From: Bacteroidaceae bacterium
GTDB taxonomy: Bacteria > Bacteroidota > Bacteroidia > Bacteroidales > Bacteroidaceae
Length of the DNA: 64,000 nucleotides
Assembly (NCBI GenBank): GCA_017560945.1
Contig: JAFZDY010000007.1
Location: 68,307 to 132,306 of the forward strand
Reading direction: 5' to 3'
The position numbers and the translations under genes were made by a program. This document shows positions 21,220 to 37,515 of this stretch, piece after piece. Every line of letters begins with the position of its first letter. Within the stretch, counting starts at the first letter, position 1. Under the pieces are notes generated by a model. That model did not search any database and had not been told where the DNA came from. It saw nothing but the letters and a program-made list of their open reading frames with translations.

Positions 21220-21927
21220 ATGTCCCCCGCTCTTTACCTTATACCCGTCACATTGGGTGATACTCCGTTGGATAAGGTACTTCCTGCATATAACAAGGAG
21301 GTTATCCTTCAAATCAAGCATTTCATAGTAGAAGAGGTGCGTACGGCTCGTCGTTTTTTGAAGAAGGTCGAGTCTTCGATTGATATAGATTCTCTTACAT
21401 TCTATCCCTTGAACAAGCATACCCAAGCGACCGACATTGCAGGTTATCTGAAACCTTTGATGGCGGGTGAGCCGATGGGCGTCATCTCCGAAGCGGGATG
21501 CCCGGCCGTAGCCGATCCTGGTGCCGATGTGGTGGCCATTGCTCAGCGTCGTGGGTTGAAGGTGGTACCCCTTGTAGGTCCTTCTTCCATACTCCTGTCC
21601 GTCATGGCTTCGGGCTTCAATGGTCAGAGTTTTGCCTTTCATGGTTATTTGCCTATCGAACAGGGCGAGCGTACCAAGCGCATCAAGATGTTGGAACAAC
21701 GTTCCTATGCCGAGAATCAGACACAACTCTTCATCGAGACTCCCTATCGCAATCGTCGTTTGTTGGAGGAGTTGATTCAAACTTGTCGTCCACAAACGCG
21801 CCTCTGCATTGCTTGCAATGTGACGTGTGAAGACGAATACATCTGTACCAAGAGTATGAAGGAATGGAAAGGGCACCTTCCCGATTTGGAAAAGCGCCCT
21901 TGCATATTCCTTATATATAAAGGGTGA
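21220..21927 (+). CDS. RsmI-type SAM-dependent methyltransferase (tetrapyrrole methylase fold)
   Basis: The protein has 235 residues. The tetrapyrrole-methylase fold is seen in LYLIPVTLGD, the SEAGCPAVADPGADVV motif (about residues 90-105) and LVGPSSILLSVMASGFNGQSFAFHGYLP. RsmI methylates the 2'-O of C1402 in 16S rRNA. This short variant, starting MSPALYLIPVTLG and lacking the usual GNLxD, is common in Bacteroidales and may be a paralog with another target. The stop codon TGA runs directly into the 7-bp repeat array. Confidence 0.8.
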   Translation: MSPALYLIPVTLGDTPLDKVLPAYNKEVILQIKHFIVEEVRTARRFLKKVESSIDIDSLTFYPLNKHTQATDIAGYLKPLMAGEPMGVISEAGCPAVADPGADVVAIAQRRGLKVVPLVGPSSILLSVMASGFNGQSFAFHGYLPIEQGERTKRIKMLEQRSYAENQTQLFIETPYRNRRLLEELIQTCRPQTRLCIACNVTCEDEYICTKSMKEWKGHLPDLEKRPCIFLIYKG

Positions 21928-22172
21928 CGAGTTACGAGCTACAAGTTACAAGCTACGAGTTACAAGCTACGAGTTACAAGCTACAAGTGACGAGTTACGA
22001 GCTACAAGCTACAAATTACAAGCTACGAGTTACAAGCTACAAGTGACGAGTTACGAGCTACAAGCTACAAATTACAAGCTACAAGCTACGAGTTACGAGC
22101 TACGAGTTACAAGCTACAAGTTACAAGTTACAAATTACGAGTTACAAGCTATGAGTTGCGAGTTGTAAGTGA
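21925..22172 (+). repeat. 7-bp-unit tandem array (consensus TACRAGY)
   Basis: About 33-35 head-to-tail 7-bp words, mostly TACGAGT, TACAAGC, TACAAGT, TACGAGC and TACAAAT. A higher-order block of several units occurs twice (around 21966-22021 and 22022-22077). It begins at the methyltransferase stop codon and decays at its right end (TATGAGT, TGCGAGT, TGTAAGT). A short inverted copy follows at 22197-22230. Confidence 0.92.
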
Positions 22173-24554: not shown

Positions 24555-24860
24555 CATTGTACTTTATTCTTTCTGAAATTAGGAGGGTAGATTATACGTT
24601 TTAAACCTGCAAGGGTTGCATTATGTATACACTTGTTCTTTGTTTTTTAGTTATAGATCGACTTGCACTTACATTTTGATATTTTCTCGTTTGTATAAAA
24701 GAGGTTGTTTGGTGCATATTTATACAAACTAAGCCCCTGTTTGTATATAAACATGCAGAATATGCGCCCTTTTTAGGCTATTCATTTTCAATATTTCGCA
24801 CCATCTACGAGCGAAAAATGGGAAAAGTGAGCCGAAAAGTAGCGTTTCCCCTTTAGTCCG

Positions 24861-24971
24861 ATAGCCATTCTTCCTGAGACGGATGGCCATCGGTGCAATA
24901 CACAAATGGCCATTTGTCTCGACTCCGATGGCCATCGAACTCCAGATGAATGGCCATCGGACAACACATGG
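24861..24971. repeat. array of five ATGGCCAT palindromes at 22-bp period
   Basis: ATAGCCAT (24861), then ATGGCCAT at 24883, 24906, 24928 and 24950: steps of 22, 23, 22 and 22 bp. The 14-15 bp between cores differ from unit to unit, except that a core is often preceded by G or A and followed by CGG, CGA or TTG. Confidence 0.88.
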
Positions 24972-36329: not shown

Positions 36330-36779
36330 ATGAACTTAGGAATGCAATCTCAAACAGAAATCTTGAAAGCCTTGAAAGAGGCGTTAGGAAAATTGCCCTT
36401 GGAAGGCGGACAAATGACCCTCGTGTCGGACATTCACCTGCAGCCTTGTATGGATAGCGGTGAATTGGCGATTTTTGATGATGATGACCATGAACTTGCA
36501 CGTATTACAGTAACAGAGTGGACGGATTGTATTCCTGAAGATTTTTATACTCAAGCCGAGTCGCAACTACGTGCCATGTTGCAAGTTGTCGAGAAAGATG
36601 GTAGTTTGGACAATTTGCCATTGATGAAACCCTACTCCTTTGTATTGGTGGACGATGAACACGAGACCGTGGCAGAGTTGTTGCTGATTGATGATGAAAC
36701 AGTAATGTTGGACGATGGATTGTTGAAAGGCTTGGATGAGGAGTTGGATGCATTCCTTAAAGAACTACTTGAAGAGTAA
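36330..36779 (+). CDS. acidic cytosolic protein of unknown function
   Basis: The protein has 149 residues, no signal peptide and a strong excess of Asp and Glu (FDDDDHE, LLLIDDETVMLDD). The ending ELDAFLKELLEE is probably an amphipathic helix. No family recognised. It has its own promoter. Confidence 0.75.
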   Translation: MNLGMQSQTEILKALKEALGKLPLEGGQMTLVSDIHLQPCMDSGELAIFDDDDHELARITVTEWTDCIPEDFYTQAESQLRAMLQVVEKDGSLDNLPLMKPYSFVLVDDEHETVAELLLIDDETVMLDDGLLKGLDEELDAFLKELLEE

Positions 36780-36896: not shown

Positions 36897-37178
36897 TTAT
36901 ATTAGTAACGTCCGTAAAACCTATTTTACTACGCCCCCCCTCCGCTTCGCTCATCCCCCTGCCAAGGGATAGTATAATGTTCTGCTTGTGCCAGAACAAG
37001 AACAGGCAAAGAGAGTGACTTCTTTGCTCTTCTCTTGCTCGTTCAAATTAGAAGGGAGTAAACCTATTTCATGACTAAGATAAAAACAGGTCAACGAGAA
37101 TTAAAAATAATGTTTAACTCAGTCAACCTCGACTATAAATAAGACTCAATGTAGTCAACGGAAATCGTTAACATACAA

Positions 37179-37310
37179 AGTACTGAAATCACACTTAATA
37201 GATACCGTAATACTACTTAATAAGTACTGTAGTACCATAAGGGAAGTACTCGAGTACCAATAGGCTGGTACTCGAGTACTCCTTAATCGGAATTTTAAGG
37301 AGTACTAATT
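37179..37310. repeat. 22-bp-period array with GTACTCGAGTAC palindromic cores
   Basis: Units begin at 37179, 37201, 37223, 37245 and 37267, exactly 22 bp each, with a decayed unit at 37289. The best cores are AGTACTGTAGTACC, AGTACTCGAGTACC and GGTACTCGAGTACT. The 8-bp tails vary, with ACTTAATA or close relatives in three of them. Confidence 0.88.
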
Positions 37311-37385
37311 TTGATTGATTATTAAGGATTTATGTATCGGATAGGTATCTGCCTAAATAATATATTAGAGTATTATTTGATACAA

Positions 37386-37425: not shown

Positions 37426-37431
37426 CTTTCG

Positions 37432-37515
37432 TACCCAGACCCGGGGTCGAACCGGGATGGAAGTGAATCCACTGGTGTTTGAGACCAGCGCGTCTACCGA
37501 TTCCGCCATCTGGGC
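37432..37515 (-). tRNA. tRNA-Leu, anticodon CAA
   Basis: This 84-nt gene folds as a class II tRNA. The acceptor arm GCCCAGA (37515 inward) pairs with TCTGGGT, the discriminator is A, the anticodon stem is CTGGT/ACCAG with loop CTCAAAC, and the TTCGA of the T loop follows a long variable arm. The CCA end is not encoded, as usual in Bacteroidota. It reads UUG codons. A 76-residue frame on the same strand (37373-37603) is spurious. Confidence 0.96.

Follow-up and report, generated by a model that had tools for sequence, protein, structure and literature searches.

Organization of the locus

The window, by which we mean the whole 64,000-nucleotide stretch of DNA analyzed here, contains a tandem array of five 22-bp units, read directly from the sequence on the forward strand (37180-37289). 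Each unit consists of a 12-bp core and a 10-nt tail, and the core follows the pattern GTACT-NN-AGTAC, referred to below as the AGTAC core. Unit 1 (37180..37201) has the degenerate core GTACTGAAATCA, unit 2 (37202..37223) has ATACCGTAATAC, unit 3 (37224..37245) has GTACTGTAGTAC, and units 4 (37246..37267) and 5 (37268..37289) share the perfect palindrome GTACTCGAGTAC, all on the forward strand. An earlier note on this DNA had described a five-unit array at 37179 with cores approaching a perfect palindrome. The array and its 22-bp units are real, and the description of the cores is correct, the last two being perfect and the first degenerate; the starts had been placed one base early and are in fact 37180, 37202, 37224, 37246 and 37268. 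The array was not reported by Tandem Repeats Finder at score 40, an Rfam scan of the window gave no match, and no sigma-70 promoters were found near the array.

A search of the source genome and alignment of the copies showed that the five units, together with a tail stem-loop, form a dispersed element of about 143 bp (37178..37320, forward strand). The stem-loop (37275..37306, forward strand) lies near the element end, starts in the last half-core of the array and is terminator-like, with a 12-bp stem and an 8-nt loop. On the left, the array is abutted by a separate dispersed repeat (36976..37177, forward strand), recognized from matches in the source genome and its genus, which also occurs without the array and in other genomes of the genus. 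This repeat has a sharp right end and, judged by eye, GTCAAC words spaced about 32 bp apart; it is common across the genus, often alone.

Upstream lies a 149-aa open reading frame (ORF) on the forward strand (36330..36779), and downstream a tRNA-Leu(caa) gene on the reverse strand (37431..37515). Both direct their 3′ ends at the array, which therefore lies between converging genes. A region related to the ORF is present in other genomes. In a relative, G396, the syntenic site keeps the ORF and the tRNA gene and lacks the array and left repeat; its flanks are too diverged for a clean empty-site alignment with the window.

A dispersed element in the source genome

The source assembly (2.35 Mb in 57 contigs, 82% complete) contains 16 matches to 37178-37320, the window copy included. 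The other 15 copies are 74-92% identical to it; some are partial, and two are cut at contig ends. By eye, the aligned copies have the leader TCATCAGAATACTCTTAAT in common, and their tail terminates in CTGATTATCA. They share their ends, among which only ATCAG/CTGAT is inverted; no clean empty site could be aligned, and no target-site duplication was shown for the copies. By eye, the copy L033 carries six units, and 22 nt of the leader present in L017 are missing from the window copy. An exact pattern of two successive cores matched 19 times in this genome, compared with 0 for the reversed control pattern. By longest-ORF calls, converging ORFs flank 7 of 14 copies, a count in which the window copy was scored as diverging because a tRNA gene is no ORF. 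In L021, L023, L034 and L027, sequence similar to CAAACCTATATAGTTTG arrays (see below) adjoins an AGTAC copy or the left repeat.

Across 14 aligned copies, 8 pairs were predicted for the tail stem-loop, each broken in at most one copy, and 2 of the 8 were altered on both sides; the consensus energy is small (-4.4 kcal/mol). A stem-loop with such two-sided changes fits a terminator added to the element.

A 22-bp architecture across the genome

The earlier note had proposed that 22-bp palindrome arrays are a general architecture of this genome and had suggested autocorrelation as a check. Our sample comprised the window and 20 tiles, together 464 kb, and 52 kb of it lay outside ORFs of at least 100 aa in any frame. 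Lag 22 is in excess and ranks first among lags 10-60, with an identity of 0.3036 against a mean of 0.278 (z 5.3). Dyad centers 22.0 bp apart were observed 27 times compared with 1.7 in shuffles, and those 44.0 bp apart 16 times compared with 1.3. Windows of strong identity numbered 20 at lag 22, 12 at lag 21 and 0-5 at ten other lags tried. At least four core types besides AGTAC occur in the sample, namely GATGGCCATC, GGCAG-N4-CTGCC, CAAACCTATATAGTTTG and CGCTTAAGCG. The expected excess at lag 22 thus held, and the common period of the two arrays in the window is not a coincidence.

The second of these arrays (24860..24960, forward strand) has five units spaced 22, 23, 22 and 22 bp apart and the core GATGGCCATC. 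It belongs to a different family, in agreement with the earlier statement that the core of an array at 24861 is unrelated to that of the first. Of 120 genomes searched, three contain the GATGGCCATC array pattern; all three are of the source genus, with 17 pair matches (copies L356-L370). The fetched copies retain one 23-bp step, the L356/L359 array skips one unit, and L370, from G400, has the same flanking sequences as the window copy. By eye, the outer bases of single units in GATGGCCATC arrays change symmetrically.

Several further repeats were observed. Arrays of 22 bp with the core CAAACCTATATAGTTTG lie at L043:2017-2072 and L044:6889-6944, and those with the core CGCTTAAGCG at L043:1295-1435, L050:2421-2519 and L055:8684-8803. 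From L039:1115 onwards there are near-identical 22-bp direct repeats of GATGAGCAACCCTTAACCCTAA without a dyad, and L055:19150-19220 has dyads of the AATGCGGCATT type about 23 bp apart. The window also holds a 7/14-bp tandem repeat, ACGAGTTACAAGCT, at 21927-22164 (score 252-329).

AGTAC arrays in other genomes

We searched 84,980 species genomes with the pattern GTACT-NN-AGTAC-N10-GTACT-NN-AGTAC and obtained at least 111 stretches, compared with a chance expectation estimated at 0.2 under equal base use. All 111 listed stretches are Bacteroidales by title, and many come from the same genomes. The array occurs in 5 of 15 genomes of the genus, and the exact array in 12 of 151 in a family sample; in a wide sample of the order it occurs in 1 of 393, the source genome itself, with just 6 of the 393 drawn from this family. 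By eye, the arrays typically open with the half core CCAGTAC and close with GTACTGG. Half cores thus stand at both ends, and therefore the unit can equally be written as AGTAC-N10-GTACT, 20 bp plus 2.

Among the 111 listed arrays, 81 lie between two callable genes: 33 between converging, 40 between co-directional and 8 between diverging genes. The corresponding numbers for 132 control gaps of at least 100 bp in the same loci are 9, 82 and 41 (converging versus diverging, p 1.7e-9). The remaining arrays comprise 19 at locus edges and 11 inside ORFs of at least 120 aa. These gene calls are crude (longest ORFs), and the ORFs overlapping arrays are putative: among the first 80 arrays, 24 lie inside ORFs at a cut-off of 80 aa and 9 at a cut-off of 120 aa. 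A transposon bounded by two arrays was considered and rejected, since the 111 stretches, each of at most 8 kb, contained no second array cluster.

Association with DUF6078

Clustering of the proteins encoded around the first 80 AGTAC arrays placed one family on top, Pfam DUF6078 (PF19555). Against the Pfam model, 4 of 4 proteins scored 102.8-113.7 bits (gathering score 27), and 48 of 48 alignment members matched. The family was present in 11 of 91 array loci (80 from the genome collection, 7 from the genus and 4 viral), all 11 among the 80, and a profile search raised this to 15 of the 111 listed genome-collection loci, one gene being cut by the locus end. In all 15 linked loci, the AGTAC array lies 5-93 nt behind the DUF6078 stop codon. 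For the other 96 of the 111 listed loci, no DUF6078 gene was found within the stretch examined, which is as expected for dispersed copies but is not proof of it. Phages were considered as carriers and rejected: of four stretches from a viral collection with the array, none had a DUF6078 match.

The source genome has three DUF6078 genes, each with an array behind it: C8 is followed by an AGTAC array, and C53 and C10 by GGCAG arrays. The family occurs in 14 of 15 genomes of the genus and 67 of 151 of the family. Among its cultured commensal carriers is Bacteroides mediterraneensis Marseille-P2644T (L063). From the genus and family searches, 114 loci were fetched, most short family-search fragments being left aside, and the gene was refound in 113. 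We then took 320-bp flanks, scored the top lag among 14-35 and used as controls the 3′ flanks of other open frames of at least 150 aa in the same loci. Lag 22 came top behind 69 of 110 DUF6078 genes and in 9 of 135 control 3′ flanks (Fisher 5e-22), counts that are not all independent, as they include near-identical genes of related species, the L200/L207 duplicate and genes found array-first. Lags 21-23 came top in 86 of 110 DUF6078 3′ flanks compared with 30 of 135 controls. In DUF6078 5′ flanks, lag 22 was top in 21 of 112 and lags 21-23 in 37 of 112; the share of flanks in which lag 22 exceeded a threshold was 57% on the 3′ side and 8% on the 5′ side. A clear array (at 33 of 66) is found in 86 of 112 3′ flanks and is lacking in 26. 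The cores behind DUF6078 genes are very diverse, for example TTTATCACGCGTGATAAA, TTCCCACCGGTGGGAA, TGCACAAATTGTGCA and TTGGACAAACGTGTCCAA. Beyond the family, DUF6078 is rare (4 of 296 genomes of the phylum). One of the four, G822, is from a different order and has two DUF6078 loci, one of them a partial match; a 22-bp array follows each.

DUF6078 proteins are about 145 aa long, with three invariant and one nearly invariant cysteine among 48 rows and a conserved C-terminal YYxxRxGE...PxEQ segment. The cysteines are perhaps a zinc site, and a helix-turn-helix could be guessed at from the cysteines and the C-terminal segment. The gene is under purifying selection (all 21 pairs compared have dN/dS of 0.02-0.26, dS being saturated in some). 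A comparison with the PDB gave no match better than E 0.24, two DUF6078 proteins had no match in PHROGs, PADLOC or NCBIfam, and in the literature collection searched we found no publication using the terms DUF6078 or PF19555 or naming the 22-bp arrays.

Some individual loci were also of note. One protein family, which looks primase-like, lies near 14 of 113 DUF6078 genes (L180, L191, L206, L212, L214, L232, L247, L260, L263, L281 and four more), and no family lies near more than that number. At L200/L207 (G395:C16), the match to a DUF6078 gene is split into two pieces in different frames, which could be decay or a sequencing error; the gene is followed by an AGTAC-like array, and G395 has no match to the AGTAC pattern used for the genus. 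On a single 42-kb contig, the DUF6078 genes L092 and L130 are 99% identical and both are followed by an AGTAC array, a recent duplication of gene and array.

No DUF6078 gene was found beside any fetched GATGGCCATC copy or beside the G466 array (L322). Within the source genome, the core families GATGGCCATC, CAAACCTATATAGTTTG and CGCTTAAGCG had no DUF6078 neighbor. The partner of the GATGGCCATC array may be lost, missing or different, and the same is true of the CAAACC and CTTAAG families.

Core type follows the protein tree

We built a tree of 118 DUF6078 proteins from 138 columns, in which many forks are weak; 8 rows came from the array-first search, and L072 is identical in sequence to L278. 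Core labels were assigned with two mismatches allowed per core. The AGTAC label requires 8 changes on the tree compared with 21.3 after shuffling, and the GGCAG label 3 compared with 9.7; in each case, none of 500 shuffles was as low. One group of 29 rows holds 22 of the 23 AGTAC rows. Two of its seven non-AGTAC rows, L246 and L268, have by eye a core close to GGACT-NN-AGTCC, in which both half-sites are altered alike.

In the family sample, 9 of the 12 genomes that have the exact array carry an AGTAC-clade gene, as do 7 of the 139 that lack the exact array (p 2.5e-8); for any DUF6078 gene, the numbers are 11 and 56, respectively (p 6e-4). In three genomes (G401, G466 and G487) arrays occur and AGTAC-clade genes do not, and in seven the gene is present and the exact array missing. 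The fit of gene and array is weaker in the genus than in the family sample. Of the five array genomes of the genus, G000 and G396 yielded a gene followed by an AGTAC array; G399, G400 and G401, whose assemblies are 76-85% complete, yielded none.

A second dispersed core, TTCTCAT-N4-ATGAGAA, was taken from the array behind the L209 gene. It forms 11 arrays in G542, the home array included, with 3-5 units at a 23-bp step, and no array in four control genomes. The flanks of these arrays look unrelated by eye, and 3 of the 11 lie between converging, 2 between diverging and 6 between co-directional genes.

From the link to DUF6078 and the clustering of cores on the tree, these array families therefore look like targets of one protein each. 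The earlier note had argued that the repeats are not a single binding site; many cores do exist, and what that view missed is the link to DUF6078, with core type clustering on the protein tree.

Mobility and the comparison with REP/RAYT

In our view, the window array is probably one of the scattered copies of a DNA sequence that a DUF6078 (PF19555) protein would bind at multiple sites. The main rival reading is array mobility. Here, DUF6078 would be an unrecognized nuclease or recombinase copying its arrays, as in a REP/RAYT-like mobile pair, and intergenic sites would merely tolerate insertion. The DUF6078 gene is solitary with respect to partner families, home arrays coexist with dispersed copies in both the source genome and G542, the source-genome copies have common ends, and the array is missing at the syntenic site in G396, all of which are consistent with mobility. 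However, no catalytic motif was recognized in DUF6078, the source genome (82% complete) contains no Y1 transposase, home arrays are found chiefly 3′ of the gene, and the G542 copies lack common flanks by eye, with no target-site duplication shown. We regard a mobile pair as rather unlikely.

The portions of the REP/RAYT study cited here describe a chromosomal gene linked to a palindromic repeat, repeats dispersed outside genes and codivergence of gene and repeat; a RAYT gene always stands between two inverted REPs whose head reads GT(A/G)G, and REPs retain complementary mutations (PMC2817692). Similarly, DUF6078 arrays are dispersed outside genes (11 of 111 listed arrays lie in ORFs of at least 120 aa, and these are doubtful), and the core codiverges with DUF6078, as seen in the clustering of two core labels. 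In contrast, the partner is PF19555, which no Y1 transposase model matches, and the repeats form tandem arrays of 22-bp units located chiefly 3′ of the gene rather than on both flanks. Unlike REPs, they show no complementary mutations (excess 0.002 at 363 variable positions). DUF6078 arrays thus resemble REP/RAYT systems yet fail as members of that class. A Y1 transposase (PF01797) was also sought as the owner of the arrays in the source genome, at its 82% completeness, and rejected for want of a match.

DNA target or RNA structure

In a different reading, the arrays would act as transcribed hairpins, that is, as 3′ UTR structures or terminators, with DUF6078 as an RNA-binding protein or a bystander. 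The location of arrays at the 3′ side of genes, the terminator-like stem-loop at the end of the source-genome copies, with its 2 of 8 pairs changed on both sides, and a single-strand fold of the element at -43 kcal/mol, calculated without a shuffle control, are compatible with this. We compared arm partners within one unit with those between units of the same array, using 57 arrays and 231 units. Within- minus between-unit complementarity was 0.002 (95% -0.020 to 0.023) at 363 variable positions, and 281 one-sided breaks stood against 34 compensated changes. The arms are thus kept as sequence and not as pairing, which makes the RNA reading improbable. In the absence of compensatory pairing, the units are therefore read as double-stranded half-sites for a symmetric protein, putatively a DUF6078 dimer. 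Two further candidates were rejected: a hairpin in the 10-nt interior, where pairing within units was about the same as pairing between units of one array, and a covariation excess at positions 3-7 in a first test, which was gone once non-units at array ends were excluded.

Relation to other dispersed repeats

The element also recalls BrickBuilt, a minisatellite MITE of Porphyromonas gingivalis, for which the cited sections report a 23-nt tandem repeat in 19 intergenic forms, with leader and tail, and IS5-like ends, GAGACCTTTGCA (PMC4596501). The source-genome element is likewise a tandem repeat, here of 22 bp, between a leader and a tail, and is present in a comparable number of copies (16), but by eye its ends are TCATCAG...CTGATTATCA, without the IS5-like terminal inverted repeat GAGACCTTTGCA, and neither a palindromic core nor a linked DNA-binding gene is described for BrickBuilt in those sections (PMC4596501). 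CGTC-tagged palindromic repeats are described, in the part of the source cited, as small, dispersed and present in Bacteroidetes among other phyla (PMC3733652); by eye, AGTAC units show no CGTC tag.

That ordinary MITEs or minisatellites landed behind DUF6078 genes by chance is very improbable and already disfavored: the array does belong to a dispersed element of about 143 bp adjoining another dispersed repeat, and three array families of the source genome have no DUF6078 neighbor, but DUF6078 genes of many genomes, G822 of another order among them, are followed by 22-bp arrays whose cores are unrelated, and these cores cluster on the protein tree.

The operators of dimeric DNA-binding proteins, such as iterons and ParB and MatP sites, have inverted or repeated half-sites at whole helical turns and keep one motif widely. 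DUF6078 arrays are similar in having inverted half-sites at whole helical turns; unlike these sites, they have a motif that changes from one protein branch to another and a home array located behind the gene.

A putative mechanism

Overall, the frequent association of DUF6078 with the arrays in gut Bacteroidaceae, with palindromes that vary from branch to branch of the protein, points to an unrecognized protein-and-DNA-target system, for which we suggest the following mechanism. A dimer of DUF6078 would recognize a core, for example GTACT-NN-AGTAC, through the two inverted half-sites of that core, and the conserved C-terminal YYxxRxGE...PxEQ segment could contact the DNA. A step of 22 bp corresponds to two helical turns, which would place the half-sites on one face of the DNA and allow the dimers to align. 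The home array lies directly behind the protein's own gene, with extra arrays of the same core scattered between genes, those of the AGTAC core mostly at gene 3′ ends. As the specificity of the protein drifts, both half-sites of the array would change together, giving rise to the many core types. In the source genome, the AGTAC array has been copied to 16 known places inside the element of about 143 bp with its terminator-like stem-loop, and the window array is one of these 16 copies.

The most likely outcome of DUF6078 binding would be the marking or insulation of gene ends. The bias of AGTAC arrays toward converging gene ends suggests insulation or termination, a bias that is absent for the G542 core. 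We tentatively propose that DUF6078 and the 22-bp arrays might constitute a new class of self-paired DNA-binding system, in which the target array lies behind its own gene, the half-sites diversify symmetrically, and oligomers on extra arrays at gene ends insulate or terminate transcription.

On this proposal, DUF6078, whose function is unstudied and which is present in 67 of 151 family genomes, gains a specific candidate target, one that varies between its genes. The dozens of natural protein-core pairs would make a recognition code directly readable and testable, and a group of unexplained repeats of gut bacteria would acquire an owner.
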